DNA of 64,000 nucleotides from the NCBI GenBank assembly GCA_015232395.1, contig JADFZT010000006.1:25819-89818 (forward strand), written 5' to 3'. The stretch comes from Magnetococcales bacterium (GTDB taxonomy: Bacteria; Pseudomonadota; Magnetococcia; Magnetococcales; JADFZT01). This document shows, piece after piece, positions 7,361 to 59,498 of the stretch. How positions within the stretch are numbered: the stretch's first letter is position 1; every line of letters starts with the position of its first letter. The notes below the pieces were generated by a model that did not search any database, was not told the origin of the DNA, and saw only the letters and a list, made by a program, of their open reading frames with translations. Both the position numbers and the translations under genes were made by a program.

Positions 7361-8893
7361 TCAACCCTCAGACTTTTTGGACTGGGCACTCTTGAGCCAC
7401 CACAACTCACCGGCACCAATCAACAGTGCCACCAGCAGAGCGACTATCAGAGGCTTGGAGCCCGATTTGGGTACCAGCAGCATCCAATACCAGGTGGACA
7501 AGGTGTGCTTGGAAGCGGTTTCGCTGTTGGATCCATCCCAGGCGGAAAAGGCGATGGGAATAAAGCGGCCCTTTTCGATCTGGAGATCGTTGGCATCGTC
7601 GGTCATCAGAGGCCGGGTCATCAGCACCCGCCAGGTACCATTGCTGTAGCTCCCCTTGGCGGTCAGGCCCACACCAGCGGCATCCCGGGGTTCCATATTA
7701 CCGAACCCGGTGGCGTTGGCATATTGGACGGTTTCATGCGCCTCGGTGGTGCCACTCTTCCACATCCACAGGTTGACCGGGTTGCTGGGATCCCCCATGC
7801 CGAAGTAGGGCTTTTCCATCCCTTCCGGAATGGTAATCGGCAGCTGGACCGCGATGGCATCCTCAAAGAGTTCCTCATCGGCGATGGAGATAGCGGTCTC
7901 ATCACCGGGTATGGATTTGGTACGGTCGTCCCACTCAAGGAGCATCGCCAGGTTTTCATCGTCAAACATCGCCCGCACCGAAACGGAATCGTTGCTGTGG
8001 GTAAAAAACCGCTCTTTGGCGATAATCTGGGGCAGCATGAAGAAGGTGTTGGGCTCGATGGCATCCCACCTGGGATCGTTGGTCTCGGTGGGAAGCTCAC
8101 CCTCCACTCTGTTGACCTGAATCACGGTCTTATCAGCATTGGGCGCATGCCCGGTTGCTGTCAGGGAAGAGGCATAGTTGGCAACATGCCAGATCTCTTC
8201 GCTGGAAAGCTTTTTCTTACTGGCCGGATCGGCAAACGACGGCATCTGCGTGCCAGGAATACCGGTCACCACCCGGGTATAGATATCCTTGGGATCGGTG
8301 GATCCCCGGAAGGTCCAGGGCTTGGTGAGATTCCGGGGCCAGGTGCGCTCGCCGTTATCCCCTTTCAGCTTTTTGATGGCGTCCCCTTTGCCCTTCGTGC
8401 CATGACACTCGGCGCACAGATCAATAAAGATCTCCTTGCCCTTGGCGAGACTCTCGGGGGAGGATTGTACCTGCTTGCCGTAATCCACCTGGGTTTCCGG
8501 GGTCTCTTCTTCATACCCGGCAAAGGTTTTGATATAGGCCGTCAGATCCCACATATCCTGCTCGGAGACGATGTCGGACCAGCCGGGCATGTGGGTGCCG
8601 GGCATGCCGTCCTTGATCATCCGATAGATATCTTCATCGTTGGGGACCATGTCGTCGAGACCGGTGGTCTTGATCTTATACATGCCACCGGTAAAATCCC
8701 TGGGCGGCGGGTTCATTCTTTCCGCGCCGGGTCCATATCCATCCCCCTCTTCGCCGTGACACCATACACAGCGTTTGGCATAAACTTCAGCCCCGTTGTC
8801 GGCATTACCCGGTTTGGCGTTGGCCGGGCTGGCGATAAAGGCCCCGACAAAGACGGCCAGCAGTGTCCGTTTAATCATGTGCCTGGTCCCCAT
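7361..8893 (-). CDS. Di-haem cytochrome c with C-terminal ethylbenzene-dehydrogenase-type haem domain
   Basis: About 510 residues. After a Sec signal (MIKRTLLAVFVGAFIASP) come two class I cytochrome c domains with CVWCHG and CAECHG. A region of about 200 residues follows that resembles the EB_dh family, a b-haem-binding fold of dehydrogenase gamma subunits, with VNLWMWKSG, GTWRVLMTRPL and IAFSAWDGSN. It ends in one membrane helix near the C-terminus. The start could be the ATG at 8893 or at 8878; the first follows the upstream stop by one base. It is the last cytochrome of a tightly packed leftward cluster and probably shuttles periplasmic electrons for the bd-like protein. Confidence 0.8.
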   Translation of the reverse strand: MGTRHMIKRTLLAVFVGAFIASPANAKPGNADNGAEVYAKRCVWCHGEEGDGYGPGAERMNPPPRDFTGGMYKIKTTGLDDMVPNDEDIYRMIKDGMPGTHMPGWSDIVSEQDMWDLTAYIKTFAGYEEETPETQVDYGKQVQSSPESLAKGKEIFIDLCAECHGTKGKGDAIKKLKGDNGERTWPRNLTKPWTFRGSTDPKDIYTRVVTGIPGTQMPSFADPASKKKLSSEEIWHVANYASSLTATGHAPNADKTVIQVNRVEGELPTETNDPRWDAIEPNTFFMLPQIIAKERFFTHSNDSVSVRAMFDDENLAMLLEWDDRTKSIPGDETAISIADEELFEDAIAVQLPITIPEGMEKPYFGMGDPSNPVNLWMWKSGTTEAHETVQYANATGFGNMEPRDAAGVGLTAKGSYSNGTWRVLMTRPLMTDDANDLQIEKGRFIPIAFSAWDGSNSETASKHTLSTWYWMLLVPKSGSKPLIVALLVALLIGAGELWWLKSAQSKKSEG

Positions 8894-8894
8894 C

Positions 8895-9662
8895 TTATTC
8901 GTGACCCCAAGATCTGGGCTGTTGTCCGGTGTAGTCATACAGGAACAAAATCACCTTCCAAATTTCATCCTCGGTCAGGAAGTCCTGCCAGATCGGCATG
9001 GATGAAATCCAGGGAGCGGCCTCCTTGGGCAAGCCCGGGCCACCAGTGGCGATCCGCCAGAAAAGAAACGACTCCTGGAGCTGGGCGATGGTGCCCACAT
9101 CCTGGAAGTTGAGCGGAACGGGATTGAGCGCAGGGGCATAAGGCCCTTTACCATCCAGCTTGTCTCCGTGGCAAAACTGGCAGTTTTGGATGTAGACCGC
9201 ACCGCCTTCGTAGACCAGCTCCTTGAATTTTTCCGGATCCTCCTTTTCAAACTTGCGATAAGGATTTTCCAGAGTGGCCAGGTTGTAGCGCTTGCCATAG
9301 GCCTTGACGGCGCTGGGAGGAGCCGGATGGATGGAACGCAGCTCCACCGGAGCCTCAAAGCTGGGCAACATTTTGCCGTAAGCGTAGTAACCGGCGGCCA
9401 GTGGTACCAGCAGGAAGACGATGTAGCGCATCACCTTCTTGGAGGGATCCTCCACCAGGGCCACGATGGGGGCGACCAGTTCCCGGGTCCCCTCCTCGGT
9501 GAAGGTGTAGACAGTGAACACCCCGGCCACCACGAAAAACATATACATGGTGAGCAGACTTGCGGGGATCAGCTGGCCCAGTAGGACATCGAACACCAGG
9601 ATAAAGCCGTAATAAATGCCGACAGTGACCAGTACGGCTTCCAGTAGCTTGGGTATCTTCAT
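8895..9662 (-). CDS. Membrane-bound mono-haem cytochrome c
   Basis: 255 residues. Three hydrophobic segments lie in the first 115 residues (near 8-30, 38-55, 78-95). A periplasmic cytochrome c domain follows, with CQFCHG near residue 160 and a distal methionine candidate in SSMPIWQDFL. The gene lies 21 bases downstream of a di-haem cytochrome gene, and its stop is immediately followed by the next cytochrome gene, so it belongs to one operon. The N-terminal membrane part with a C-terminal c domain suits an anchored electron carrier within a larger membrane complex. The exact family name is not recognised. Confidence 0.8.
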   Translation of the reverse strand: MKIPKLLEAVLVTVGIYYGFILVFDVLLGQLIPASLLTMYMFFVVAGVFTVYTFTEEGTRELVAPIVALVEDPSKKVMRYIVFLLVPLAAGYYAYGKMLPSFEAPVELRSIHPAPPSAVKAYGKRYNLATLENPYRKFEKEDPEKFKELVYEGGAVYIQNCQFCHGDKLDGKGPYAPALNPVPLNFQDVGTIAQLQESFLFWRIATGGPGLPKEAAPWISSMPIWQDFLTEDEIWKVILFLYDYTGQQPRSWGHE

Positions 9663-9683
9663 TGTATCGGTGCCTTCCCTTAC

Positions 9684-10496
9684 CTATTTCAGACCGGCCA
9701 GGTAATCCACGAGCAGATCCAACTCCACGGCGTAGAGCTGCTCACCGTAATCCGGGGGCATCATGTCAGCCTCAAACCCTTCGGCCACATCGGCGTTGGG
9801 ATCCATGATCGCCCGCCGGAGGTAAGCCTTGTCCACCTTGCCTCCAATTGCCCTGAGATCCGGACCCATGTCCCCTTCCCCATCAGCCACCAAGTGACAC
9901 ATGCCACACTGGAGCCCTTCGAGCACCTCTTCGGCACTGGTCCACACTTCACGGGTTTCGGCCTCTTCTTCCTCTTCTTCCTCGTCGGCGCTCATGTCGG
10001 GAATCTCAACGGTCACTTCCATGCCGTTGGAGTCCTGCATATAGGCGATCGTCGCGAGAATTTCAGGTTCGGAAAGGCCGATGGAGCCCCCGGAAACGTC
10101 GGGCATGGGGCTGACGGTATCGTTGGTACCCGCTTTGCCGAATCCCGCCACCACGTAGGCGGAAGGATCGACCAGGGATTCCATCAGATAGCCCTCTGCG
10201 TCGGAAGCTTCTCCGGCATAGCGGCTATCCGCCAGCCGCTCTCCGACAGCACTCCCCAATTTTTCCAACATGGGTGCGCGGCCCAACTCGTTATGGCAAA
10301 GCTTACAGGTACCCTTGCCGTTGACAGTTCGCTCACCCAGAGCAATAAAGCCGTCCATATCCATGGCCGTGAGGTCGATCTTTTCCTCTACCGGCGGGGG
10401 GGCCGGCGTGATCTGGGGAATTCCAAAATTGGAATACCCCCCAAACATACCGATGACGAACAGGCTGAAGGCCGCTACTTGCAGGAATATTTTCAT
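9684..10496 (-). CDS. Di-haem cytochrome c with acidic linker
   Basis: 270 residues. An N-terminal signal or anchor helix (MKIFLQVAAFSLFVIGMFGG) precedes two cytochrome c domains with CKLCHN near residue 62 and CGMCHL near residue 197. A run of glutamates (about 170-180) separates the domains. The start at 10496 has AGGGA close upstream and lies only 7 bases from the stop of the bd-like gene. The two domains are of similar size and may have arisen by duplication. It is predicted to be periplasmic and to exchange electrons with the bd-like membrane protein. No substrate-binding domain is visible. Confidence 0.8.
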   Translation of the reverse strand: MKIFLQVAAFSLFVIGMFGGYSNFGIPQITPAPPPVEEKIDLTAMDMDGFIALGERTVNGKGTCKLCHNELGRAPMLEKLGSAVGERLADSRYAGEASDAEGYLMESLVDPSAYVVAGFGKAGTNDTVSPMPDVSGGSIGLSEPEILATIAYMQDSNGMEVTVEIPDMSADEEEEEEEAETREVWTSAEEVLEGLQCGMCHLVADGEGDMGPDLRAIGGKVDKAYLRRAIMDPNADVAEGFEADMMPPDYGEQLYAVELDLLVDYLAGLK

Positions 10497-10502
10497 GGTT
10501 CC

Positions 10503-12902
10503 CTAGGTCCTCCAGTAACCGGTGACGGGGGTCTTCCTGCCACTGACCGTAGCCAGCCAGAAGACAAAAATGACCATGGCCATAAAGATGATAGTGCCCA
10601 CCGAAACCACGTTGGCGGCATATCCCAGGGTCGGCGTGAATGCGTCCGGCGAGTTATCCCGCATGATGTCCACCACATGCCAGTGCTGACGGATACCGGA
10701 GCGGATATACCCCATGAGACCCATGAGCCAGGTGAAGGAGACCGCGAGCAGGAAGAGGGCATATTGACTTCGTCCCGATACCCGACCCCATTTCAGCGGT
10801 GCCACCTCCTTGGCGCCTTTATACATGAAGCTGTCGATCACCCCGCTGGCCACCAGCACCACGAGGGTGGTCAGCACCTGGGGAATGGAGGCCGCCACCT
10901 TATAGACCGTGTTGGTGAAGTAGCCGTAGTAGATGCCCAGGATCAGAATATTGATGATACCGGCGGTAAAGAGGGCAAACTGGGCGGCATTACCCGCCTT
11001 GACCCATGACACCACCGGCGTCTTGTTGGCTCGGCGATAGACCAGGAACGACAGTGCTGTGAAGAGAATCATGATGTTCACAGCGGTGTTTTTGGCAGGC
11101 ATGATGCCCAGCGGCCCCAGATATTTATGGTAGGGTCCACCCAAAGCCTGTAGTTCCTGATTGGTCAGCACCAATGTGTGCGGCGTAAACCAGACCAGGA
11201 AGGCCCCGACAATCACGGCAGCGAAATACTTGATATACTTGTTGTATCTCACCGCCCCATCGCTTCGTCCCATGCCACACCAGAGATAATAGTTGGCCGA
11301 GAGAAACAGCGTGCCGATCAACACCGCCTGGATGATGAAGAGCCAAGCAAAGACGCCACCCATCAGGGTGATACCCATCTGTTGGCTGTAGGCGTAGATT
11401 TCAGCCGTCAGATAGTAGCCCGCGAAGGGGAGCGGCAGCAGCGCGCTGATAGCGATAAAGTTGGCGGTATAGCCCATCCAGTCATAATGCGCCTTCTCCT
11501 CTTTGGTGCGGGAGGAGAGAAACTTGAAGGCGGCATAAGCCCCCACCACCGATCCACCGTAGGCCACATTGGCCACCACCCGGTGAAGGTTGATGGGATT
11601 CCAGAGGAAGTTGTGCATCGCAGCCCAGGTATCCCCGGAAAAGGTCCCGGAAGCATCCACCCCGGCCGGACTCATCATGAAGGTGAGCCAGGAGTTGGCG
11701 AGCAGCATCAGGACGGTACCGACGGCGTTCAGGAGCAGGCCCAGGGTGAGATGCACCCATTTTTTAAAGCCGCCCTGGAGCCATTTCCAGCCATAGTAGT
11801 AGATGTAAAGACAAGCGCTCTCAGCGAAAAAGAGCAGCGCATAGTAGAACATCGACTCCTTGAAGATGGTGGTCAGGTAGAGCATCAAATCGGGATAAAA
11901 GACCAGAAGGGAGAGGGTCAGAAAACCACCCAGAATCGCTGTCAGGGAGTAGGCTGTGATGGAGACCTTGATAAACTCATAGGCCATGTTGTCATAGCGC
12001 TGATCCCGGGTCTTCATGCCGATGGCTTCGATGATGAAGACAAAGATGGGCACGGCCAGAACAAAAGCGGCAAACCAGAGATGAAGCTGGGCCACCAGCC
12101 ACACCACGACCCGGCCATTGACCCCGGCGATCTGGGGATAATCCTTGGCGGTGAGTTTGGGTGCCGGGCCGTAAAGGGGCTCTTCTTCCACCAGCTCCTC
12201 AGCAGCCTCTTCAGCCGGAGCAGCCTCTTCAGCGACAGCCTCCTCAGACTCAGCGGCCTCTTCCACATCGGCATCCGCTGCCACCTCTTCAGCTGAAGTA
12301 TCCGGCTCAGCGTCGGCGACTTCCGCCACGGCCGCGATCACCTCTGGCGCCTCTTCAGCCACAGGAGCCGCATCAGCTGCCGTCTCGGCGGCCTCAACAG
12401 CCGCTTCCACCGTAGCGGAGATCTCAGAAGCAGCCTCTTCGACAGCCGTTACCGCCGTTTCCTGTACGGTTTCGACCGCCGCAACAGGCTCGGCCACCAA
12501 CGCAGCGGGCGCCTCAATCACACCCGCCACCTCGGGAACCGCCGGTATGGCCACCGGGGCATCCGGGAGAGCTGCTTCGACAGCTTCGGTCACCGCAGTA
12601 GCCGGAGCTGATTCGACAGCGTCCTTGGCGGCAGCCAGGGGATCAGCCATCACCGGCATGGCCAAAATTTCAGCCGGTAGACCCGGATCCTCAGCCACGG
12701 CTGTGGCTGATGTATCAGCGGTTGCCAGGGGATCGGCCATCACCGGCATGGCCAAAATTTCAGCCGGTAGACCCGGATCCTCACCGGAGTCCGCCCGGGC
12801 CAGGGAACCGCCCCATGCCGTCGGACCAAAATTGATGATCATGAGGGCCAGGACCCAAACCCCGATCACCCATCCTGCTTTTGCGGAAAAACGCGGCCTC
12901 AT
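10503..12902 (-). CDS. Cytochrome bd-like multispanning membrane protein with Ala/Glu-rich extension
   Basis: 799 residues. The start at 12902 is supported by AGGAG just upstream. Residues 1-38 form a signal or anchor segment. Residues about 39-243 are a low-complexity Ala/Glu/Val region. The rest has about 14 membrane helices and resembles CydA: QLHLWFAAF (His274, like E. coli H19), FFAES (Glu361, like E107), NPINLHRVVANVAYGG (His440, like H186), NIMILF (Met611, like M393) and GIRQHWH (like GRQPW). By eye, the E99 and E445 equivalents are Tyr353 and Ser. There is no quinol Q-loop and no CydB gene. From memory, Nitrospira encode similar bd-like putative oxidases beside cytochromes c. It may be fed by cytochrome c rather than quinol. 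The substrate (O2, NO or other) is unknown. Confidence 0.7.
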   Translation of the reverse strand: MRPRFSAKAGWVIGVWVLALMIINFGPTAWGGSLARADSGEDPGLPAEILAMPVMADPLATADTSATAVAEDPGLPAEILAMPVMADPLAAAKDAVESAPATAVTEAVEAALPDAPVAIPAVPEVAGVIEAPAALVAEPVAAVETVQETAVTAVEEAASEISATVEAAVEAAETAADAAPVAEEAPEVIAAVAEVADAEPDTSAEEVAADADVEEAAESEEAVAEEAAPAEEAAEELVEEEPLYGPAPKLTAKDYPQIAGVNGRVVVWLVAQLHLWFAAFVLAVPIFVFIIEAIGMKTRDQRYDNMAYEFIKVSITAYSLTAILGGFLTLSLLVFYPDLMLYLTTIFKESMFYYALLFFAESACLYIYYYGWKWLQGGFKKWVHLTLGLLLNAVGTVLMLLANSWLTFMMSPAGVDASGTFSGDTWAAMHNFLWNPINLHRVVANVAYGGSVVGAYAAFKFLSSRTKEEKAHYDWMGYTANFIAISALLPLPFAGYYLTAEIYAYSQQMGITLMGGVFAWLFIIQAVLIGTLFLSANYYLWCGMGRSDGAVRYNKYIKYFAAVIVGAFLVWFTPHTLVLTNQELQALGGPYHKYLGPLGIMPAKNTAVNIMILFTALSFLVYRRANKTPVVSWVKAGNAAQFALFTAGIINILILGIYYGYFTNTVYKVAASIPQVLTTLVVLVASGVIDSFMYKGAKEVAPLKWGRVSGRSQYALFLLAVSFTWLMGLMGYIRSGIRQHWHVVDIMRDNSPDAFTPTLGYAANVVSVGTIIFMAMVIFVFWLATVSGRKTPVTGYWRT
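12634..12783 (-). repeat. Direct 60-bp repeat inside the bd-like gene
   Basis: Two copies (12634-12693 and 12724-12783) differ by one base and are offset by 90 bases. They encode EDPGLPAEILAMPVMADPLA twice, with a 30-residue period, just after the signal segment. Near-identity at DNA level indicates a recent in-frame duplication. Confidence 0.9.
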
Positions 12903-12935
12903 TGTCGCTCCTATCAAGCCCATCCGAGGGGTCCT

Positions 12936-13073
12936 TTATTGGTGAAAGAACAGGGAGATGCCCTGAAGATTCATCATGAGCAGGTCCAAAAGAAAAAAGG
13001 CGACGCCAAAAACACCCAGCCCCGCACCATAGGGAATAAGAAATTCCTTGTACCGTTCAATAATCGCTTTCAC
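12936..13073 (-). CDS. Small single-helix membrane protein, 45 residues
   Basis: GTG start at 13073 with GGGAG upstream; the product is (V/M)KAIIERYKEFLIPYGAG followed by a helix of about 20 hydrophobic residues (GVFGVAFFLLDLLMM) and a short tail ending FFHQ. It lies 34 bases before the bd-like gene and 19 bases after another tiny membrane gene on the same strand. Short helices of this kind are typical accessory subunits of terminal oxidases (CydX and CcoQ are precedents), so I infer a structural subunit of the bd-like complex. No recognised family. Confidence 0.55.
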   Translation of the reverse strand: MKAIIERYKEFLIPYGAGLGVFGVAFFLLDLLMMNLQGISLFFHQ

Positions 13074-13091
13074 GGCCCGACTCTCCCACAC

Positions 13092-13196
13092 TCAAAGGAA
13101 CCAGATAAAAAACAGGATCACCCCAATCAGGACCGTGGTGAAAAGAGCCGGTCCGGCCAAGGGGTATTTGTCAATTCCCGTAGGTTGGTCACTCAT
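13092..13196 (-). CDS. Small single-helix membrane protein, 34 residues
   Basis: ATG at 13196 with GGAG 7 bases upstream. The product opens MSDQPTGIDKYPLAGPALFT and then has one hydrophobic helix, VLIGVILFFIWFL, up to the stop. Codon use and the clear ribosome-binding site support translation despite its size. It sits between a cytochrome c gene and the 45-residue membrane gene in the leftward cytochrome operon. I infer a small subunit of the bd-like/cytochrome complex by analogy with CydX or CcoQ-type peptides; there is no sequence family match. Confidence 0.55.
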   Translation of the reverse strand: MSDQPTGIDKYPLAGPALFTTVLIGVILFFIWFL

Positions 13197-13297
13197 TTGT
13201 CTCTCCCCCTCCCCACTTGAGGGGAGGTCAGGCCACACCACCATGGGGGGTGATGCGGCCCATTCACGAAAATGCCAAGGTTACGGCTGGATCAGCC

Positions 13298-13660
13298 TTA
13301 CTTGCCCTTGCAGTTACACATCACACGCAGATAGGCCACCAACCCTTCGGTCTCTGCATCGGTAATGGTCTGGGACCAGGGGGGCATGATGGGGGATTTG
13401 CTCACAGCAGGCCCGCCATCCTTGATCACGTTGCGCATGTCGTCGTCGGTGAGCTTGCTCATCTCGGCGCCGTTGGTAAAGTTGCGCGGGGTTACCGGCA
13501 TATCCTTGGTAACGTTGGGTCCGTCTCCCTTACCGGTGGCTCCGTGGCACTGGGCACAATAGAACTGATAGACCTGTTCGCTATCTTCAGCCCGAACATC
13601 GCTTGCGGTCAAAAGACCGAAGGTGACCAGGGCAGCGGCGAAGATGGGAAGTTTGGGCAT
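13298..13660 (-). CDS. Small periplasmic mono-haem cytochrome c
   Basis: 120 residues from the ATG at 13660, chosen because AGAGGA lies 8 bases upstream and a clean Sec signal follows (MPKLPIFAAALVTFGLL, cleavage near VRA-ED). One haem site, CAQCHG, lies near residue 36, with a distal Met candidate in SPIMPPWSQTI. The C-terminus carries two extra cysteines (MCNCKGK). It is a class I cytochrome c and the second gene of the leftward cytochrome cluster. The likely role is soluble electron transfer between a quinol-oxidising complex and the membrane-bound cytochromes. Confidence 0.8.
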   Translation of the reverse strand: MPKLPIFAAALVTFGLLTASDVRAEDSEQVYQFYCAQCHGATGKGDGPNVTKDMPVTPRNFTNGAEMSKLTDDDMRNVIKDGGPAVSKSPIMPPWSQTITDAETEGLVAYLRVMCNCKGK

Positions 13661-13692
13661 TGTCAACATCCTCTCATCCAGATTTCTTGCGA

Positions 13693-14352
13693 TCACTTAA
13701 AATTGGCCACGAAGGCGGAGACGTTTTTGATGTCCTTGTCTTGGAGGATGCCTGTGAAAACCGGCATCATCTTGACGGGCTTGAACACCTTGGGCTGGGT
13801 CATGTAGGCATAGATCCAGTCCGGGTTGAGCCGCTTCTTGGCCCCGACCAGGGTGGGGGCGGAGAGACCACCGGAGATCTTCTTGCGGTCCGGATAGAGA
13901 TGACACCCGGAACAGGGCTGCTTTTTGGTGAAGATCATCTTGCCTTTCACGTTCTTCTTGGGCTTGATGACACCCGCCTTGACCGCGTCAGAGGTGAGCC
14001 CCATGAGGAAATCCGTCACGTTGGCGGCATCCCCACCAGCCAGCTTCGGATGGTCACCGGCATTTTTTTCGGTGAGGGAGTTGTATTTCAAAGGACGAAT
14101 CGGTTGGGGATCCTGCAACCAGCCCGCAAGCCAGGGTTTTTGAAACTTGGAACCGGCATACCATAGCTCCGGACCCTTTTTGGCCATTTGGTCGGCGATG
14201 GTTTTTTCCTGAGCCGGGCCTTGGGTGTAATGACACTCCTGACAGTTATTGGCTTTGAAGGCCGCTTCCCCGGCCGCTGAATCGGCCTTGGCTGCAACAG
14301 GCGCCGCCAACAGCAGGCCCATCCCCAGAAAGACCCTTACCGCTCGTTTCAT
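13693..14352 (-). CDS. Periplasmic di-haem cytochrome c (first gene of the leftward cluster)
   Basis: 219 residues from the ATG at 14352, which has AGGAGAG about 6 bases upstream; an upstream ATG at 14379 lacks a site. A Sec signal (MKRAVRVFLGMGLLLAAP) precedes two cytochrome c domains with CQECHY near residue 37 and CSGCHL near residue 147. Spacing and phrases such as KPWLAGWLQDPQPIRP resemble cytochromes that accompany bd-like and nitrogen-oxide reductases, but the partner is not known. It heads an operon of seven or eight leftward genes whose promoter lies in the 0.8 kb divergent region. Confidence 0.8.
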   Translation of the reverse strand: MKRAVRVFLGMGLLLAAPVAAKADSAAGEAAFKANNCQECHYTQGPAQEKTIADQMAKKGPELWYAGSKFQKPWLAGWLQDPQPIRPLKYNSLTEKNAGDHPKLAGGDAANVTDFLMGLTSDAVKAGVIKPKKNVKGKMIFTKKQPCSGCHLYPDRKKISGGLSAPTLVGAKKRLNPDWIYAYMTQPKVFKPVKMMPVFTGILQDKDIKNVSAFVANFK

Positions 14353-14447
14353 CTCGCTCTCCTTGAATCCGGTGATCATGCATGTGGCCTGTTGCCGACC
14401 TTAAAAAAAATGATCCGGCAACCAACCTGCTAAAATCTTCACAGTAC

Positions 14448-15129: not shown

Positions 15130-16890
15130 ATGCAAGGAAAACTCAAGAAAACGTTGATGCTGGCAGGCGTCTCCTCGGCATTCCTGCTTGGCGGAATGTT
15201 GCCGGGAGAGGGTGTTGCCAAACCCAAAATCCCGGCGTGGATGCACGGATCCGAGGTTCCCACCGAGCTGCCCACAGTCGACACGCAGTTGATGTACAAC
15301 GCGGGTGGTTTGGATGGTAAGGTCGCCATCCTCGGTATTCCCAGTATGCGGACCTACCGCCACATCGATATCGGCGTGGATCTGCATGAGCCGGTGTTCA
15401 GCGGTACCAACGCCGGTAACAAGAACGGTACCTCTGACGGCAAATATCTTTACGTCAATGACAAGGGTGCCAACACCATTGGTGTCGTCAACCTGCAAAC
15501 CGGCTTCCTGGAGCGCCTCATCTCCATGCCGGTGCCTTTCGGCATCCATCACATCTCTCTGGACGACACCGGCAAGTTTCTCTACGCCACCGGTGAGCTC
15601 TCCGGTAAGATGGCCAAAGTGGAGATTTCCACCGGTAAGGTGCAAGTGATCGACTGGGGTCCTGCTCCCAGCGCCCCTGACTATCTGGATGTGGACAAGA
15701 AAGGTCGTTACGTCTTTTCCGGTAACTACTACCACTCCACCGTGGGTGTCTTTTCCACCAACCCCTTCAAGCTCATCAAGGAAATCCCCGTGGGTAAGAA
15801 TCCCCACGGTACCGACGTGATTCCCGAGAGCACCCTGGTGATTGTCAGCGACAAGCTGTCGGCCACCATGACCGTGATCGATGTGGAAAAGCTGGCTGTT
15901 AAAAAGGTCATCCCGACCTGTGCTGGTCCTCTGCACTCGGTGATGGATGTCTATGATGCCAATGGCGGCACCTACGAGCCTGGCAAGGACAGCCCCGAAG
16001 GTCTCACCTCCAAGTATGCCTACGAGAGCTGCTTCGTCTCTGACTCCAACGTCAAGATCGACCTGAAAAAGCTGGAAGTGGTGGATGAAATTCCCACTCA
16101 CTACCGCACCGGTCACATCGCGATTGCCCAGGACAACAGCTACGTTTTTGCTCTCAACAAGTTTTCCACCGGTCTCTTCAGCCCCACCGGCGTGATCTTC
16201 CCCGTGAACTTTGAGATGTGGGATGCCCGTGAGGATAGCCCGACCTACGGTAAAACCATGCGCATCATCCCCGTGGATGGCGAGCCCCACAACGCCAAGG
16301 TGATCCACTCCTATCAGGTGAAGCGTTGGAACATGGGTCAAGCTGAAAAGGGTGGTCTGCTCAGTGGCGACACCCCGGCCCTCTTCCCGGCTCACCGGTC
16401 CAAGTCCAAAGTGTCGTTCCTGCCCAAATCCAAAGAGCCCCCGGGAGTCCGGATGAAGGATGGCGTCAAGGAGGTCCACATCAAGGCCTTCAGCTATGGC
16501 TACATCCCCCGTCAGGTTCGCGTGAACAAGGGTGAAAAGGTACGTATCTTCGTCACCAACATCGATCGCGCTTCCGGTATCACCAAAAACCCCGACGTGA
16601 CCATGGGCTACACCATCTATGGTCCCTACGGTCTGCGTACCAACCTGAGCGCCCCCCGTGGTGTGACGGCGGTGACCGAATTTGTGGCTGACATTGCTGG
16701 TGAATATGAAGTCTACTGCCAGCATTTCTGCGGTCCTCTCCATCTGGAAATGCGCGGTACCTTCTTTGTGGACGATCCTGAGAAAGAAGCCTCCAACCTC
16801 GCCATCGGTGACTATAAAGAAGCCCAGGAACTGCCTGGTCTGACCGAAGAAGGTGAGCTGGAGATCGCTCCGGTGGTTGAAAAGTTCTAA
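15130..16890 (+). CDS. NosZ-family (nitrous oxide reductase-like) Sec-exported copper protein with altered ligands
   Basis: 586 residues. A Sec signal without a twin-arginine motif (MQGKLKKTLMLAGVSSAF) precedes a propeller domain. That domain keeps most NosZ landmarks: LHEP (His86), IHH (140-141), NPHG (226), GPLH (269), YRTGHI (329), FALNKFSTGLFSP and EPHN (387). The C-terminal cupredoxin (about 445-550) has the CuA-type set CQHFCGPLHLEM (Cys530, Cys534, His538, Met541). Compared with known NosZ by eye, the second His of the DxHH pair is Glu87, the first CuA His is Met492 (TMGY for THGF), and the Trp between the CuA cysteines is His532. Sec export recalls clade II NosZ. It lacks nosD and nosL beside it, so N2O reduction is likely by family but unproven. 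Confidence 0.8.
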   Translation: MQGKLKKTLMLAGVSSAFLLGGMLPGEGVAKPKIPAWMHGSEVPTELPTVDTQLMYNAGGLDGKVAILGIPSMRTYRHIDIGVDLHEPVFSGTNAGNKNGTSDGKYLYVNDKGANTIGVVNLQTGFLERLISMPVPFGIHHISLDDTGKFLYATGELSGKMAKVEISTGKVQVIDWGPAPSAPDYLDVDKKGRYVFSGNYYHSTVGVFSTNPFKLIKEIPVGKNPHGTDVIPESTLVIVSDKLSATMTVIDVEKLAVKKVIPTCAGPLHSVMDVYDANGGTYEPGKDSPEGLTSKYAYESCFVSDSNVKIDLKKLEVVDEIPTHYRTGHIAIAQDNSYVFALNKFSTGLFSPTGVIFPVNFEMWDAREDSPTYGKTMRIIPVDGEPHNAKVIHSYQVKRWNMGQAEKGGLLSGDTPALFPAHRSKSKVSFLPKSKEPPGVRMKDGVKEVHIKAFSYGYIPRQVRVNKGEKVRIFVTNIDRASGITKNPDVTMGYTIYGPYGLRTNLSAPRGVTAVTEFVADIAGEYEVYCQHFCGPLHLEMRGTFFVDDPEKEASNLAIGDYKEAQELPGLTEEGELEIAPVVEKF

Positions 16891-16982: not shown

Positions 16983-17480
16983 ATCAACAGCCTCTTAAAT
17001 CCTGGCGGATTTTCGGTACGATCCTTTTTCGCTCTCCTGCTGCTCCTGGGTATCTTGAATGGATGTGGTGCCAAGGAGGAAGCCCCCCCTCCGCTGCCGA
17101 CTGAAACGGCGGATGTGGTGGTGAAGCGGTTTTATGAATTGATATCCGAAGCCCAGATTCGCGGCGGATCCCTCCCCATTCGGGAGGCGTTCAAGCTGAT
17201 CGATAGTGAAAGTTCCCAGATCAGCCAAGCCAAATTTGTCCAAATCGTCAAACGCTACCCTTCGGGATTTCAGATCCAGGTAGTTGATACCAAAGTGAGT
17301 GCCAAAGAGGGCAATGCGGCGGTGACGATTTCGTATAAGATGCCTTCCATGTTTGGTGACGGCTACGACGTTCAGACCGACGTATTGCTGAAAGTGGACA
17401 AGGCCAGCAACAGTTGGAAAATCGACTTTACCGGGGAAACCGATGATCAGGACCCCAACGCCATGAAACGGCAAGGTTAG
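16983..17480 (+). CDS. Lipoprotein, NTF2/DUF4878-like, with apparent ATC start
   Basis: About 165 residues. The frame contains a full lipoprotein signal: basic-polar start, FFALLLLLGI, then the lipobox LNGC. There is no in-frame ATG or GTG before it. The ribosome-binding site AGGAG (16970-16974) lies 8 bases before an ATC at 16983, so an ATC start, or a sequencing error, is likely. The TTG at 17055 would remove the signal. The mature part (about 120 residues) has TADVVVKRFYELISEAQ and a beta-rich end typical of NTF2/DUF4878-like lipoproteins. It lies between the NosZ-like gene and the cytochrome b gene; the role may be assembly or docking. Confidence 0.65.
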   Translation: MNSLLNPGGFSVRSFFALLLLLGILNGCGAKEEAPPPLPTETADVVVKRFYELISEAQIRGGSLPIREAFKLIDSESSQISQAKFVQIVKRYPSGFQIQVVDTKVSAKEGNAAVTISYKMPSMFGDGYDVQTDVLLKVDKASNSWKIDFTGETDDQDPNAMKRQG

Positions 17481-17525: not shown

Positions 17526-18164
17526 ATGTCTGGAAAATTTTCCAACTGGCTGGAGGAGAGAACCGGGTTCAGAACATGGTCCCGGCGCAAGGGGGCCCAA
17601 GCGGTTCCCAGCCATGTGGGATGGTTTCACTACTGCTTTGGCGGTTTAAGTCTTTTCATCATCGTGTTACAGGTGCTCTCCGGGATCTTCATGGTCTTTT
17701 TTTACAAGCCGGAGCCCCTGGAAGCGCTGAAGAGCATTGAATATTTGAGCAATGAAGTCACCCTGGGATGGTTTTTCAGGAATCTGCACCGGTGGGGATC
17801 CACGCTGCTGATAGCGACCATTTTTACCCATATGATCGCGGTGATTCACCAGCGGGCCTACCGCAACCCGAGGGAGCTTAACTGGGTATCGGGTCTGTTA
17901 CAGTTCATGGTGGTGTTTTTGCTCTTGGCCACTGGATTGATTTTACCCTGGGACTGGCGGGCCTACTGGTCATTTTCGATTTGGGTGGATTATTTCGCCA
18001 CCTGGCCTTTGGTCGGTGATTTTTTGAAAAATTTTCTGCTGGATACTTTTTCCATCAACCGCAGCTTCGTGCTTCACATTCTGGTGCTGCCGTTGACGCT
18101 TTTCATCCTGCTTTTTTTCCATTTTCGAATGGTCAAAAAGCATGGCATCTCGGAACCGCTGTGA
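17526..18164 (+). CDS. Cytochrome b (b6-type N-terminal half)
   Basis: 212 residues with four membrane helices. It has the haem-ligand pattern of cytochrome b/b6: NLHRWGS with THM 13 residues on in helix B, and VLHILVLPL with FHF 13 residues on in helix D. The quinol-side phrase GLILPWDWRAYWSF is also present. It would bind two b haems and oxidise quinol as the cytochrome b of a bc-type complex. The C-terminal half is encoded by the next gene, 19 bases on. No Rieske gene lies nearby, so electron bifurcation may be absent or differ. A fused paralogue of both halves lies at 29456. Confidence 0.85.
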   Translation: MSGKFSNWLEERTGFRTWSRRKGAQAVPSHVGWFHYCFGGLSLFIIVLQVLSGIFMVFFYKPEPLEALKSIEYLSNEVTLGWFFRNLHRWGSTLLIATIFTHMIAVIHQRAYRNPRELNWVSGLLQFMVVFLLLATGLILPWDWRAYWSFSIWVDYFATWPLVGDFLKNFLLDTFSINRSFVLHILVLPLTLFILLFFHFRMVKKHGISEPL

Positions 18165-18182: not shown

Positions 18183-18869
18183 ATGGCTGACATGTCTGAA
18201 GAGCCGGATATCATACGGGATCCCAAATATGATCCCCCCTACCCCCAGGACTTTTACCGGTTCTGGCCCAAACATGTCTTCAAAACCATTTTGGTCTTGG
18301 GACTTTTGATGGGCGGGTTGGGTTATCTGACTTTTCAGTTTCAGGTACCGATGGATTCCAACATGCCACCTCTGCCGGATGAGGGAATGTGGGTTCCGGC
18401 ACCGGAGTGGTATCTCTTTACCCTGTTTCAGCCCTTTTGGTACCTCACGGGGGAGGATGTCAGCTGGCGACCTCTCTTCACTTTCTGGGTGCCGGTTGGG
18501 GTGCTGATCCTGCTTTTTGCGATGCCATTTGTGTTTGGCCGCAAGCGGGCTCCGGTGGAGGGTGTGGGGGTTGTCAAGCGGACCGGATTGGCGGTGCTTT
18601 TTCTGTTTATCTGGGGTGCGGGTATCGCTGGCGTGGTGGGGAGTGGTTATCCTGCCAAGACCACCGGCTGTCCTTCCTGCCACAACCCGATGATGGGTCA
18701 GCGGCAGGCACTGCCTCCGGCGGATATGGGCAAGTTTTATCGGGAGGCCCGGGAGCAGCAGATTCAGGTGGGACGTTACCGGATCGGCAACACCATGGGG
18801 ATGGGTGACTCCTACAAGGATGCCAACTGGCAGTTGCGGCACTTTTATGAACCCACGATGACCTGGTAG
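18183..18869 (+). CDS. Cytochrome b C-terminal half (subunit IV type) with C-terminal c haem
   Basis: 228 residues. Three membrane helices (near 30-55, 105-125, 140-160) and the subunit IV phrase VPAPEWYLFTLFQPFWY place it as the second half of cytochrome b, including the PEWY-like quinol-site motif. After a fourth helix the C-terminus has one c-haem site, CPSCHN, near residue 162, and ends in a conserved-looking tail HFYEPTMTW. The end resembles that of the fused paralogue (HWFFPQVVW). The fused c haem could take over electron delivery to soluble cytochromes in the absence of a Rieske protein and cytochrome c1. The next gene starts within 40 bases. Confidence 0.85.
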   Translation: MADMSEEPDIIRDPKYDPPYPQDFYRFWPKHVFKTILVLGLLMGGLGYLTFQFQVPMDSNMPPLPDEGMWVPAPEWYLFTLFQPFWYLTGEDVSWRPLFTFWVPVGVLILLFAMPFVFGRKRAPVEGVGVVKRTGLAVLFLFIWGAGIAGVVGSGYPAKTTGCPSCHNPMMGQRQALPPADMGKFYREAREQQIQVGRYRIGNTMGMGDSYKDANWQLRHFYEPTMTW

Positions 18870-18904
18870 TGAGTGTCATGGATGATACGGGTAGGAGATG
18901 GGGT

Positions 18905-20098
18905 ATGCGGGCCTTGATCCTCTCTTTGGGGATGCTGGTGGCGATGGTTGGCGGTGAAGTGATTGCTGTGGAATCCCAGCCAATGCAAGAGTTTCAGCTG
19001 CCTGAAGGCATGAGTGCCATACAGGATCTGGCGGTTGATACGGCATCGGGTGATGTCTGGTTTGTGGAAAAGGTGGGCAGGCAGTTGGGTCGTTTTCATT
19101 TGGCTGATCAGACTTTTGCCACCCACTCGCTTCCGGAAGCTTGGGGGGATGTTGGCTTTGCCACCATGACCCGGGGTCCGGACGGTACTCTCTGGTTTAC
19201 GGTCAATCGGGGTGTGCAGGTGGTGGAGGAGACCCACTATTTGGGGGCTTTTGATCCGACGAAGGGCGTTTTTTCCCAGCACCCTCTCCCCCCGGGAAGT
19301 GCTCCTGAAGCGTTACAGGTCGCATTGGATGGCGTGGTGTGGTTTTTGGATCCGGATGCCAACAGCGTTCGGGCCTATGATCCCCGGGATCAATCCCTCA
19401 GGGATTTTGCGATTCCCACACCTCATGCTCAACCTCGTGGGATTGCTTTGGCCCGGGATGGTTTGGTCTGGTTTAGCGAACCCAACATCAACCGCATTGG
19501 CAAGCTGGATCCCAAGAGCGGTGAAGTGACGGAATATGATATTCCCACACCGTTTGCCAATCCCGGTGCGATCACGGTGGATGGCCGGGGGTTGGTTTGG
19601 TTTGTGGAGATGACCTCCAATCGGTTGGGACTTTTTTATCCCGATCTGGAGCGGTTTGACGAAGCGGAGATTCCCACCCCTCGGGGGTTGCCGGTGGCTC
19701 TGGCTGCGGATCAGGAAAATCGGATCTGGATATCGGAACTGCGGGGCAATCAGATGACCCGGTTTGATCCGGCGGAGGCGACTTTCACTTCGGTGGCTGT
19801 ACCGACTTTCAACAGTCTGCCGGGGGAAATATCACTGGATCTGGAGCGTCAGCGGCTGTGGTTTTCGGAGAGTGCCACCGAGGCCAAAAAGCTGGGTATG
19901 TTGAATATTGGTGTCGATCAGGTACCCGGGGTAGCGGAGTTGAATGCCGCTGAGGCTGAATCCACCACTGCCCAGAAGGAGACGCTTAAGGGGACTGATT
20001 CCAAGAGCACTCTCTATTTGGGATTGATTTTGCTGGTCATTCTCGGTGCGGTGACGGCGCTGGCGCTTAAAAATCCTTGGCGCGGGGCACCCAAATGA
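18905..20098 (+). CDS. Vgb/NHL-type seven-bladed propeller protein, membrane anchored (1)
   Basis: 397 residues. I start at the ATG at 18905 because GGAG lies 8 bases upstream and a signal peptide follows (MRALILSLGMLVAMVGG). The body has repeated blades with the signature WF(S/V)E...NRIGxxDP (DGLVWFSEPNINRIGKLDP and variants), as in virginiamycin B lyase and SMP-30/NHL propellers. A C-terminal membrane helix (LGLILLVILGAVTALAL) anchors it outside the membrane. The lyase activity is unlikely to be relevant here; a scaffold or copper-site assembly role, taking the place of NosD, is speculative. The next gene overlaps its stop codon (ATGA). Confidence 0.75.
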   Translation: MRALILSLGMLVAMVGGEVIAVESQPMQEFQLPEGMSAIQDLAVDTASGDVWFVEKVGRQLGRFHLADQTFATHSLPEAWGDVGFATMTRGPDGTLWFTVNRGVQVVEETHYLGAFDPTKGVFSQHPLPPGSAPEALQVALDGVVWFLDPDANSVRAYDPRDQSLRDFAIPTPHAQPRGIALARDGLVWFSEPNINRIGKLDPKSGEVTEYDIPTPFANPGAITVDGRGLVWFVEMTSNRLGLFYPDLERFDEAEIPTPRGLPVALAADQENRIWISELRGNQMTRFDPAEATFTSVAVPTFNSLPGEISLDLERQRLWFSESATEAKKLGMLNIGVDQVPGVAELNAAEAESTTAQKETLKGTDSKSTLYLGLILLVILGAVTALALKNPWRGAPK

Positions 20099-21084
20099 GG
20101 CGAACCCTGCTGCTGGCGGTGCTCTTGTTACCGTTCATGGGATTCGAAGCCTGGGGATCGTCGGGGTTTAAAAGTTTTCCGCTCCCTGGGGCCCATGCCT
20201 TACCGGCCCGTATGGCGATTGATCCCCAAGGGGATATCTGGTTTGTGGAGTCCAATGGCAATCGGATTGGACGGTTTAAGCCGGAGGGAGAAAAATTTAC
20301 GTCATTTGAACTCCCCACCGTTCGGGCGGTACCAGCGGATATAGCGGTCGCCCCTTCGGGAAAGATTTGGTTTACAGAGCAGGATGCCAATCAGTTGGGG
20401 GTGTTGGATCCCGAAACCGGGACGATTGTGGAGTATGACATTCCGACCATTGAGAGCCTGCCCCGGCGGCTGACAGTGGATGCCAAGGGCGTCGTTTGGT
20501 TCAGCGAATTTTACGGCAACCGGATTGGTCGGTTTGACCCCCAAGAGGGGCGCATCAAGGAGTACAAACTCCCGACACCCGGGAGTCAGCCCATGGGGAT
20601 TGTGGCGCATGAAGATGGCTCGATCTGGTTTTTGGAGACCCAGGGCAACCAACTGGGTCGGTTAGACCCCGAAAGCGGCACCATTCGGGAATATCCTTTA
20701 CCAACGCCTTTCATGATTCCTCAAGATCTGGCGATTGGCTTGGGGGGGAAGTTTTGGTTCGGGGCGCGCAAGGATCAAAAGCTGGTTTCGTTTGATCCGG
20801 TGTCGGAAGTTTTTCAAACCTATGATCTACCCCATGGCGGGGTGATTGCGGGGCTTTCGGCGGGAGGTAAGGGAACCATTTTGTTTTCACTTGGATTTCC
20901 TGGAAAAATCGGCATCTTCAATCCGGTTTCTCAGGGCTTTCAGGAGTTTAAGCTCTTCCTGGGCAACAGCCGGCCCAATGATATCGAGATGGACCCCCAC
21001 GGGGACATCTGGTTTTCGGACATCGGCCAAAACGCCATTGTCAGGACGAGCGGTGCGGAAGTAACGAATCTATTGGTAAAGTAG
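20095..21084 (+). CDS. Vgb/NHL-type seven-bladed propeller protein, periplasmic (2)
   Basis: 329 residues, starting at the ATG that overlaps the upstream stop by ATGA. Signal peptide (MRRTLLLAVLLLPFMGF, cleavage near AWG-SS). Almost every 42 residues a blade motif recurs: DIWFVESNGNRIGRFKP, KIWFTEQDANQLGVLDP, VVWFSEFYGNRIGRFDP, SIWFLETQGNQLGRLDP and others. It is similar to the preceding protein but lacks the C-terminal anchor, so the two are probably tandem duplicates. Sequence family: virginiamycin B lyase-like. In this setting it more likely binds or stabilises a respiratory partner than acts on an antibiotic; that is inferred from operon context. Confidence 0.8.
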   Translation: MRRTLLLAVLLLPFMGFEAWGSSGFKSFPLPGAHALPARMAIDPQGDIWFVESNGNRIGRFKPEGEKFTSFELPTVRAVPADIAVAPSGKIWFTEQDANQLGVLDPETGTIVEYDIPTIESLPRRLTVDAKGVVWFSEFYGNRIGRFDPQEGRIKEYKLPTPGSQPMGIVAHEDGSIWFLETQGNQLGRLDPESGTIREYPLPTPFMIPQDLAIGLGGKFWFGARKDQKLVSFDPVSEVFQTYDLPHGGVIAGLSAGGKGTILFSLGFPGKIGIFNPVSQGFQEFKLFLGNSRPNDIEMDPHGDIWFSDIGQNAIVRTSGAEVTNLLVK

Positions 21085-21111: not shown

Positions 21112-22050
21112 ATGAGGCGAAAAATGAAAAAAGCATGGTATCTGGTTCCATTGGGCCTGCTGGTGGCGGTTTCGACCCCCACGGAGAGTGTGGCAGGCGA
21201 AAAGCGGTGCCGGGTGGGTAGTACACGGGTAGAGTGTCCGGTGAAGACCGACGCACAGCTCGAAAAAGCGATCGACGCCTATGAGGCGGAAGGCAATGCC
21301 ATGGCCGAAGGTAAGGCCGGAAGCACCTACGGTATCGCTCCTTTCGACTATCTGACGGGTGTGGGTAAGCATTCCGAAGGCACCACTCTGACTGAGGGTG
21401 ACAGCGGCTACGGCGCTGGCACCGGTAAGACCGAGTTGTGGGATCGGGTCAAAGCCCCCAAAAAGGGTGATGCGCTCTACAATCAGTGGACCAACAACTG
21501 GTCCCCCACCTTCAAGACCACCCTGGTTCCGGGTGCGGATCCCAACGAAGGCAAGCAGTGGTACTACGTCTATTGTGTAGGCTGCCACGGCTGGCTGCTC
21601 CAGGGTGACGGTCCCAACGCCTTTTATGTAACGCCCAGGCCCCGGGTTCTCGTCGCCGGCGACTACATGAATGGCAAGACCAACCTGGAGCTGTTCTCGG
21701 TGATCAAAGGCGGCGGTGAAGCGGTGGATCTCTCCCCCTCCATGCCTTCCTGGGGTAACCTGATGCAAGATCAGGACATCTGGAACGTGGTGGCCTGGAT
21801 TCGCGCCAACGCTGACGTGGGTCCGCCCAAGTCTCTCGAGGATTATCTCAATCCCAAATCCTCCTACAAGCCCAACCCCAACGACGTCAACCCTCTGAAC
21901 GCGGCCCAAAATGCTGACTTTGCCGACGCTCAGGAGATGGCTGAAGCGACCCTGCCCGGTCGTGGCGTTATCGAGGGTGGCGGTTATGTGGAAGGTGGCC
22001 TGCGCAAAGCTCCCTCCGAGGTGGCTGGCAAGGTCAAGGGCGGTTACTAA
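21112..22050 (+). CDS. Periplasmic mono-haem cytochrome c (312 residues)
   Basis: A signal peptide (MKKAWYLVPLGLLVAVS) is followed by about 150 residues without a haem motif, containing two extra cysteines (CRVGSTRVEC) that may form a disulfide. A class I cytochrome c domain follows with CVGCHG near residue 158 and a distal Met in SPSMPSWGNLM, then an 80-residue Pro/Asn/Gly-rich tail. It lies 27 bases after the second propeller gene and before a strong terminator, so it closes the first transcription unit of the NosZ-like operon. It is a good candidate for the direct electron donor of the NosZ-like enzyme. Confidence 0.8.
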   Translation: MRRKMKKAWYLVPLGLLVAVSTPTESVAGEKRCRVGSTRVECPVKTDAQLEKAIDAYEAEGNAMAEGKAGSTYGIAPFDYLTGVGKHSEGTTLTEGDSGYGAGTGKTELWDRVKAPKKGDALYNQWTNNWSPTFKTTLVPGADPNEGKQWYYVYCVGCHGWLLQGDGPNAFYVTPRPRVLVAGDYMNGKTNLELFSVIKGGGEAVDLSPSMPSWGNLMQDQDIWNVVAWIRANADVGPPKSLEDYLNPKSSYKPNPNDVNPLNAAQNADFADAQEMAEATLPGRGVIEGGGYVEGGLRKAPSEVAGKVKGGY

Positions 22051-22434: not shown

Positions 22435-22971
22435 ATGAAGAAGGGCTTGCTCTTCACGGTGGCGGTTTTGGCCACTCTGGTGGTTGGTCTGTTGATTGTT
22501 CCGCCGCTATTGGGGATCGATCTGATGGCTCGGGCCAAGGCCCATGGGCTGGTGGCCTATTCCACTGATGAAGCGGTGGCTCTCGCCTATGAACGCTGCA
22601 CGGGATGCCACGACTCGGAAAAAATCGTCAAATATTGTACCCGCTGCGGCCCACCCTTCATCGTCGCCAGCCACTTTATGCAAAAATATGTGGAAATCAC
22701 CAACCAGAACGGGCTCGTGGTGGAACCTTTCACCGATGCCGAGCTGGTAGCCATCGTCCAGGTGTGGAATGCCCTGGTGGGTAACTGGGAGGTGGACTGG
22801 AAAAAGCAGGATCTGGCCAAATTGATCGCAGGGAATAAAGGGCTGCTGGGGCTTTTGGAGATCCCCCTTGATCAGCGACCCATCGAATCCGCCTTGCAGG
22901 GCAAGCGGGCTCCGGGGGCTTATATTGAAGAGCAGAATCAGCCGGCTACGGCTGGGGCTGGGGCTTCATAA
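22435..22971 (+). CDS. Membrane-anchored small cytochrome c with extra CxxC
   Basis: 178 residues. AAGGAAGG precedes the ATG by 6 bases. An N-terminal helix (about 4-27) acts as signal or anchor. The c-haem site CTGCHD is near residue 57, followed 14 residues later by KYCTRCG, a second CxxC without histidine that could bind metal or form a disulfide. No classic distal Met loop follows; HFMQKY may supply it. It has its own promoter region after a terminator and may be anaerobically controlled. The likely role is electron transfer in the same respiratory system. I do not recognise a named family. Confidence 0.7.
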   Translation: MKKGLLFTVAVLATLVVGLLIVPPLLGIDLMARAKAHGLVAYSTDEAVALAYERCTGCHDSEKIVKYCTRCGPPFIVASHFMQKYVEITNQNGLVVEPFTDAELVAIVQVWNALVGNWEVDWKKQDLAKLIAGNKGLLGLLEIPLDQRPIESALQGKRAPGAYIEEQNQPATAGAGAS

Positions 22972-23113: not shown

Positions 23114-24052
23114 ATGATCGAAGTCCAAGGGCTGACCAAAGAGTTTGGCCCCCATCGCGCCATCGAAGACATCACTTTTTCTGCCGAAAAGGGAGAAGTC
23201 GTCGGTTTTCTGGGTCCAAACGGTGCTGGCAAAACCACCACCATGCGGATTCTCACCTGCTTCTTCCCCCCTACCCGGGGCAAAGCTTCCATCTGCGGTT
23301 TTGACTGCTTTGAGGACTCCCTTGAAGTGCGCAGGCGCATCGGCTACCTCCCGGAAACGGTCCCCCTCTACCGGGATATGGTGGTGCGGGATTATCTGGA
23401 ATTTGTCGGTGGCATCAAAGGACTGTCAGCTCGGGATGTCAAACAAAATGTCAACCAGGTGATAGATGAGTGTGGGGTCGAAGGGGTGGCTCACAAACGG
23501 GTGAGTGAAATTTCCCGGGGATATCGGCAACGGGTGGGGCTTGCCCAAGCACTGGTCAATAACCCGGAAGTGTTGATTCTCGATGAACCCACGGTGGGGC
23601 TCGATCCTCGGCAGATTCTGGAAATTCGCAAGCTGATCAAAAATCTGGCGGGCAAGCGAACGGTGATTCTCTCCACCCATATCCTACCGGAAGTGAGCAT
23701 GATCTGCGGGCGGGTAATCATCGTCAATCAGGGGCGACTGGTGGCGGTGGACACACCGGATAATCTCACGGCCCAGCTGCAAAAATCGACCCGCCTGCGA
23801 ATCCGGATTTCCGGGGAGCCCAAAGAGGTGATGGCTACTTTGAGTCAGGTATCGGGTGTCAAAGAGGTCACGGCCGACCCGGCTGAGGCGCGCTGTTATC
23901 TGGTCAAAACCACCGGGGATGAGGGGGTCGGCAAGCGAATTGCCCCGGCCATCATCAACAAGGGGTGGGATCTGATTGAAATGCGAGCCGACAAGATGAG
24001 CCTGGAAGAGGTGTTCATCAAGCTCGTGACCCAAGAGGAGAACGCGGCATGA
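23114..24052 (+). CDS. ABC transporter ATPase, GldA/NosF-like
   Basis: 312 residues. Walker A GPNGAGKTTT (near 35-44), Q-loop region GYLPE, signature ISRGYRQRVGLAQAL (near 136-150), Walker B LILDEP and switch STHIL are all intact. A C-terminal domain of about 90 residues follows. It is the ATPase of a four-gene ABC system in which every gene overlaps the next. The set ATPase, ABC-2 permease, GldG-like auxiliary protein and DUF4340 protein is widespread and resembles the gliding-motility GldA/F/G exporters. NosF is a close relative by fold, but the partners here argue against a NosDFY system. Substrate unknown. Confidence 0.85.
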   Translation: MIEVQGLTKEFGPHRAIEDITFSAEKGEVVGFLGPNGAGKTTTMRILTCFFPPTRGKASICGFDCFEDSLEVRRRIGYLPETVPLYRDMVVRDYLEFVGGIKGLSARDVKQNVNQVIDECGVEGVAHKRVSEISRGYRQRVGLAQALVNNPEVLILDEPTVGLDPRQILEIRKLIKNLAGKRTVILSTHILPEVSMICGRVIIVNQGRLVAVDTPDNLTAQLQKSTRLRIRISGEPKEVMATLSQVSGVKEVTADPAEARCYLVKTTGDEGVGKRIAPAIINKGWDLIEMRADKMSLEEVFIKLVTQEENAA

Positions 24053-56920: not shown

Positions 56921-56965
56921 ATACCCCAAAGGAGTGGTTGATTCCATGGATGGAGCCAACGTTTG

Positions 56966-57682: not shown

Positions 57683-57688
57683 CCCACC

Positions 57689-58354: not shown

Positions 58355-58361
58355 GATCGTT

Positions 58362-59063: not shown

Positions 59064-59498
59064 CCAGCCTGGAAGATCGAGCCGGGGTCTGAAATAATTG
59101 AACCGGCTGGACAGATCCGAACTCTGAAAAGATGGATCTGATGAAATTGTTTTAAATGGAAATGGCGTTTTATGGTCATTTTGGTAATAAAAAAAGACAG
59201 GTAAAAACAAAATCAAGACCTTGGGGCTGCACCCCAAACCCGCTGAATATGGTAAAGATAAGATCAAAAGATAAAAAATAAAATCAAGACCTTGGGGCTG
59301 CGCCCCAAACCCGCTGGATATGGAAAGATAAGGTCAAAAGACAAAAAACAAAGTCAAAACCTTGGGCTCTGCCCAAACCCGGTAGGGGGATAATCCCCCT
59401 ACACCCCTAACAGTAAAATCAAAATCACACCGGCAACCCCTCCCAAGCCGATTCCGGTTTGGTTTTCTGGGTATCCATACCCACTCAATGAGGATCAT
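59064..59498. repeat. Intergenic repeat block between ccmC and ccmF (two type B, one type A)
   Basis: Type B units lie at 59218-59250 and 59289-59321, and a type A unit at 59361-59409, the same three-part arrangement as the end of the 27.4-28.0 kb block. A-rich GATAAGATCAAAAG pieces join them. No ccmD or ccmE open frame is present here. Confidence 0.85.

Follow-up and report, generated by a model that had tools for sequence, protein, structure and literature searches.

A clade III lactonase-type nitrous oxide reductase with altered copper-ligand residues in a Magnetococcales genome

The stretch of Magnetococcales DNA analyzed here (64,000 nucleotides; the window) carries an open reading frame (ORF) at positions 15130 to 16890 (+ strand, ATG start) whose 586-amino-acid product is, on sequence grounds, a clear member of the clade III lactonase-type N2O reductases (L-NosZ), an already described family. 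The protein is probably a periplasmic enzyme that completes NirS-based denitrification by reducing N2O to N2, with a rearranged set of copper ligands and maturation partners of its own. Judged from the aligned homologues, its altered ligand residues are features common to the clade and not an oddity of one protein. The points of interest left are the apparent relocation of a CuZ histidine, a methionine at the CuA gate position, and a gene cluster without nosD and nosL.

Clade III was reportedly described by He et al. in 2025 (Nature 646:152-160). The same family is described elsewhere as "nosZ-like" (PMC11033732), and clade III is an accepted, acetylene-inhibited N2O-reductase clade (PMC13274427).

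Family assignment and distribution

15130..16890, + strand: L-NosZ (clade III lactonase-type N2O reductase), with a Sec-like leader, a seven-bladed propeller (CuZ) and a cupredoxin domain (CuA), assigned from NF052460.1 and from PDB sequence and fold matches

Membership in L-NosZ was defined as a score above the curated cut-off of the NCBIfam equivalog NF052460 (700 bits), and the protein matched NF052460.1 over its full length with 785.8 bits (E value, 1.2e-236). The canonical NosZ models TIGR04244 and TIGR04246 (TAT and Sec) gave 128.7 and 170.1 bits, against a cut-off of 625. The protein has the L-NosZ layout of a lactonase-type propeller and a cupredoxin domain: the YncE/lactonase propeller repeats PF10282 and PF21783 scored above the Pfam cut-offs, and the cupredoxin domain matched PF13473 at 22.9 bits, slightly below the cut-off of 27. 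The best PDB sequence matches were N2O reductases, with most of the aligned region in the cupredoxin domain and the latter half of the propeller. The AlphaFold model (pLDDT, 81.4; pTM, 0.82), built from 29 homologues, had N2O reductases as its top 50 Foldseek matches in the PDB, at about 20% identity. The single-chain model superposed on NosZ with a TM score of about 0.5 across the whole chain and an rmsd of about 15 Å, and this low score is consistent with a different domain arrangement in the model. The N terminus looks Sec-like by eye (KLKK, a hydrophobic stretch, and no RR), in line with the Sec-type signal proposed in an earlier note on this DNA.

Like the clade I and II enzymes of P. stutzeri, M. 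nauticus, and P. denitrificans, the window protein has the two-domain layout, six of the seven CuZ histidines, the equivalents of K454, E492, and F621, and the Cys, Cys, His, and Met of CuA. However, it shares only about 25% identity with them, its candidate seventh histidine lies on blade III and not on blade II, a methionine replaces the distal CuA histidine, additional residues precede Met492, and the gene cluster is different.

Relatives with 54 to 85% identity were found in Gammaproteobacteria, Alphaproteobacteria, Gallionella-type Betaproteobacteria, Mariprofundus, Nitrospirota, Nitrospinota, and deltaproteobacterial metagenome-assembled genomes (MAGs) labelled Myxococcota or Thermodesulfobacteriota, and further L-NosZ came from sampled whole genomes. 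The family is uncommon: among 299 genomes sampled from the phylum to which the window belongs, 2 scored above the NF052460 cut-off. No relative was found on viral contigs, and the plasmid matches were all below 60% identity, those listed being canonical NosZ. The closest described system, the "nosZ-like" gene of the Nitrospirota class 9FT-COMBO-42-15 (PMC11033732; MAG nzgw271, our locus L034), encodes a protein 66% identical to that of the window, with the same E87, H141, and M492 and an overlapping cluster.

In a quick tree with long branches flagged, L-NosZ formed one group (SH-aLRT, 99), distinct from both canonical NosZ and a sister group that lacks CuZ. The sister proteins (L131, L132, L141, L143, and L144) have about 500 amino acids and 33 to 36% identity; they keep CuA with a histidine at position 492 and have lost most or all of the CuZ histidines. 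The Nitrospinota genomes G679 and G680 encode both L-NosZ and the CuZ-less sister type. A CuA-less relative, L135, falls inside the L-NosZ group; it is a 1,139-amino-acid ORF of a Nitrospinota MAG (L032:1198-4617) with an L-NosZ-like N-terminal part, without the CuA ligands and some CuZ histidines, and an intact L-NosZ (L142) is encoded elsewhere in that genome (G300).

The CuZ site

15385..15390, + strand: His86 (P. stutzeri H129) and Glu87 (H130 position, motif LHEP), from residue counts
15547..15552, + strand: His140 (H178) and His141, the candidate relocated seventh CuZ ligand, from residue counts
15805..15807, + strand: His226 (P. stutzeri H326), invariant
15934..15936, + strand: His269 (P. 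stutzeri H382), invariant
16114..16116, + strand: His329 (P. stutzeri H433), invariant
16159..16161, + strand: Lys344 (K454, the lysine beside CuZ), invariant in L-NosZ and canonical NosZ
16282..16290, + strand: Glu385 (E492) and His387 (H494), invariant

Residues were counted in an alignment of 49 L-NosZ (Pseudomonadota, Nitrospirota, Nitrospinota, and MAGs labelled Thermodesulfobacteriota or Myxococcota) with 46 canonical NosZ, fewer L-NosZ (45 or 48) being counted at some positions. As the earlier note had read, six propeller histidines (H86, H140, H226, H269, H329, and H387) align with canonical CuZ ligands and the CuA cysteines are present. The canonical set of seven is replaced by these six, Glu87, and an additional histidine, His141, which is next to His140 and had been overlooked. 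Position 87 is Glu in 42 of the 49 L-NosZ and Asn in the other 7, which are Nitrospinota, whereas it is His in all 46 canonical sequences. Position 141 is His in 48 of 48 L-NosZ and Gly in 46 of 46 canonical NosZ. Neither group varies at the remaining CuZ histidines or at the equivalents of K454, E492, and F621, and the residues near CuZ that are implicated in catalysis are retained. Glu87 (or Asn87) and Met492 persist in homologues from several phyla, even at identities as low as about 50%. Close homologues, which the earlier note had proposed to examine, share the altered set and not the canonical one. Two trivial explanations were rejected: an oddity of a single MAG, because the altered residues are fixed across phyla, and a misalignment of the ligand sites, because the motifs align unambiguously across 122 homologues.

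In canonical NosZ, blade II supplies two consecutive histidines, and a lysine (K454) lies beside CuZ; when the CuZ histidines of the P. stutzeri enzyme were replaced one at a time, the site was no longer metalated in six of the seven variants (PMC11573801). The consecutive pair appears to have shifted from blade II to blade III in L-NosZ. The exchange of H87/G141 for E or N87/H141 is a clean swap, so the histidine count stays at seven, with the invariant His141 probably compensating for the histidine lost at position 87. NF052460 also prefers this combination: when single residues of the window protein were exchanged and the variants scored, Glu87 scored 3.0 bits above His and His141 scored 5.0 bits above Gly. 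From this conservation we infer that relocation to His141 is the simplest route to retaining seven histidines. Glu87 is thus probably offset, and CuZ may still be a seven-histidine site with one ligand from blade III, in which Glu87 or Asn87 would be a second-shell residue.

It is unlikely, although the glutamate occurs in 42 of 49 sequences and is favored by the NCBI model, that Glu87 itself ligates copper in a site of six histidines and one carboxylate with altered chemistry, leaving His141 in the second shell. The Asn of the seven Nitrospinota sequences, the complete conservation of His141, and the clean swap that retains seven histidines all argue against such a site.

The CuA site

16603..16605, + strand: Met492 (motif DVTMGY) at the position of the CuA/gate histidine H583, from residue counts
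16486..16488, + strand: Ala453 at the position of the gate serine S550, from residue counts
16717..16752, + strand: CuA motif CQHFCGPLHLEM (C530, H532 backbone, C534, H538, M541), with C, F, C, H, and M invariant and 532 variable

The canonical CuA set is Cys2-His2-Met plus a backbone carbonyl, and in the window protein its distal histidine is Met492. Position 492 is Met in 45 of 45 L-NosZ and His in 46 of 46 canonical NosZ, whereas both CuA cysteines, H538, and M541 are invariant in the two groups. In the P. stutzeri enzyme, H583 can flip from copper to S550 and back and has been put forward as a gate for electron and proton transfer, whereas the Trp at the 532 position contributes its backbone carbonyl to CuA as a ligand (PMC11573801). 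Among the PDB matches listed, there are H583 variants with A, D, E, F, N, W, and Y but none with Met. The S550 position is Ala or Gly in 44 of 45 L-NosZ and Ser in 38 of 46 canonical NosZ; since several canonical sequences also have no Ser there, this change is not specific to L-NosZ and is weak evidence by itself.

The earlier note had described a NosZ-family protein with altered CuZ and CuA ligands, which the L-NosZ match and the residue counts bear out, and its residues Glu87, Met492, and His532 are exactly as stated (H86-E87, M492, and C530-Q-H532-F-C534-GPL-H538-LE-M541). The three differences do not weigh equally. Met492 is, from the alignment, a real change of a CuA side-chain ligand, and Glu87 is probably offset, as set out above. 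The difference at His532 is trivial because only the backbone carbonyl of that residue would ligate CuA, and the position varies within both L-NosZ and canonical NosZ. Met492 would either ligate CuA1 weakly or leave it three-coordinate. The proposed histidine-flip gate of the canonical enzymes could not operate, because Met492 stands in for the gate histidine of that mechanism.

The window protein differs in one respect from the family model, which seems to be a mixture of Met and His at position 492: His scored 0.8 to 0.9 bits above Met, and both scored about 1 to 3 bits above L, Q, N, and A. Because Met and His score alike, the family behind NF052460 probably contains His492 members, and the verified L-NosZ enzymes may be of either type. 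No His492-type L-NosZ was found in the genome samples of four phyla.

Gene cluster, denitrification genes, and significance

7361..14379, - strand: divergent block of c-type cytochromes, an EB_dh-domain cytochrome and a bd-like 806-amino-acid membrane protein, conserved beside L-nosZ
17055..17480, + strand: small NTF2-like, lipoprotein-like protein (coding may begin upstream of 17055), from synteny 3' of L-nosZ in several phyla; PF05223 weak
17526..18164, + strand: cytochrome b6-type protein, from PF00033 and synteny
18183..18869, + strand: second cytochrome-b half with a CxxCH heme site, from sequence and synteny
18869..20098, + strand: Vgb-like propeller 1 with a C-terminal hydrophobic anchor, from PF24684 and synteny
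20077..21084, + strand: Vgb-like propeller 2, from PF24684 and synteny
21112..22050, + strand: monoheme cytochrome c, the most conserved neighbor, with homologues at 30 of the 40 relative loci
22435..22971, + strand: small cytochrome c (CxxCH), with a homologue in 13 loci
23114..27361, + strand: GldA-like ABC ATPase, ABC-2 permease, and GldG-like and DUF4340 proteins, downstream of L-nosZ in several phyla

L-nosZ heads a cluster conserved in several phyla, which comprises the lipoprotein-like gene, the split cytochrome b, the two Vgb-like propellers, cytochromes c, and the GldA-type ABC transporter with GldG and DUF4340 proteins. No canonical nos accessory gene was recognized in it. The divergent block is kept in the Gallionella-type, Sedimenticola, and L008 loci and in part in a Mariprofundus locus (L038). 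Electrons would pass from quinol to L-NosZ through the cytochrome b6 and c proteins, and maturation would depend on a different set of proteins, for which the ABC transporter and the Vgb propellers of the cluster are candidates guessed from synteny. It is very improbable that the protein is a degenerate, inactive N2O reductase: two ligand positions do differ from canonical NosZ, but these substitutions recur throughout the 49 sequences, which span several phyla, the other ligands are invariant, and the gene cluster is conserved.

Three further features of the window were observed. The 806-amino-acid bd-like protein (10503-12923, - strand) has a long Ala/Glu-rich N-terminal stretch and is 76 to 81% identical in L-nosZ-linked loci. 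An imperfect direct-repeat array, mostly with a GGGGCTGCGCCCC hairpin, lies at 27425-27969 between the DUF4340 gene and the gene at 28076. By eye, the genes at 56963-62565 resemble a ccm cluster for heme export and cytochrome c maturation, and many c-type cytochromes share the window.

The earlier note had seen no nosD or nosL nearby, and the same holds for the entire genome of the window (99% complete), in which neither nosD (TIGR04247) nor nosL (PF05573) had a match, and no canonical NosZ was found. NosL was not found in 12 of the 14 L-NosZ genomes tested, a set in which two genomes (G262 and G308) look like one; in the genomes with NosL (G299 and G301), it is on contigs other than that of L-nosZ. 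MAG nzgw271, unlike the window's genome, is reported to carry nosDFLYX (PMC11033732), and the absence of nosD and nosL is therefore no rule for the whole L-NosZ family.

The window's genome has matches of NirS size to PF02239 (cytochrome d1) on contigs C14 and C12 and the heme d1 gene product NirJ above its cut-off; NirK and qNOR (PF22085) were not found in it. Strong PF02239 matches occurred in 13 of 19 L-NosZ genomes versus 0 of 14 control genomes, but NirF and NirN fall under PF02239 as well, so a match need not be a NirS. Near the second nirS-like gene, contig C12 encodes a B-type heme-copper oxidase homologue with a CuA-type subunit II (L164:15054-17342), in which the GHPxVY motif reads GHSSQQI and the active-site Tyr is absent. 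The nitric oxide reductases of the heme-copper oxidase superfamily have no active-site Tyr, and this homologue is a candidate nitric oxide reductase. A nitrite-to-N2 route is plausible in this genome because it has nirS-like and heme d1 genes together with the Tyr-less homologue. The L-nosZ relative of MAG nzgw271 was transcribed with nir and nor genes in dysoxic groundwater (PMC11033732).

The suggestion of the earlier note that the substrate is not N2O found no positive support, given the equivalog match, the residues kept near CuZ, and the nirS-like and heme d1 genes. Similarly, it seems quite unlikely that the Met492-type proteins are paralogues of the verified L-NosZ that use another substrate or serve as a redox relay. 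The similar weight of Met and His in the NCBI model means that the verified members may be His-type, and the relatives that have lost CuZ or CuA show that a NosZ-type fold can be repurposed. However, the Met492-type proteins keep all CuZ histidines and the Lys, Glu, and Phe near CuZ, the full score exceeds the equivalog cut-off, nirS co-occurs, and the genome has no canonical NosZ.

N2O reduction by the window protein is thus still the favored reading. More tentatively, the Met492-type L-NosZ could be a distinct N2O reductase variant, in which blade III has taken over the seventh CuZ histidine from blade II, CuA is gate-less with Met for the distal histidine, and maturation proceeds free of NosD and NosL by means of its own cluster.

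NosZ is the main known biological N2O sink, and L-nosZ genes would be overlooked by ligand-based filters or canonical nosZ models. The different L-nosZ cluster bears on how CuZ may be assembled without NosD and NosL. If true, a clade with a shifted CuZ histidine and no gate histidine would be a natural experiment on the need for the CuZ ligands and on gating.
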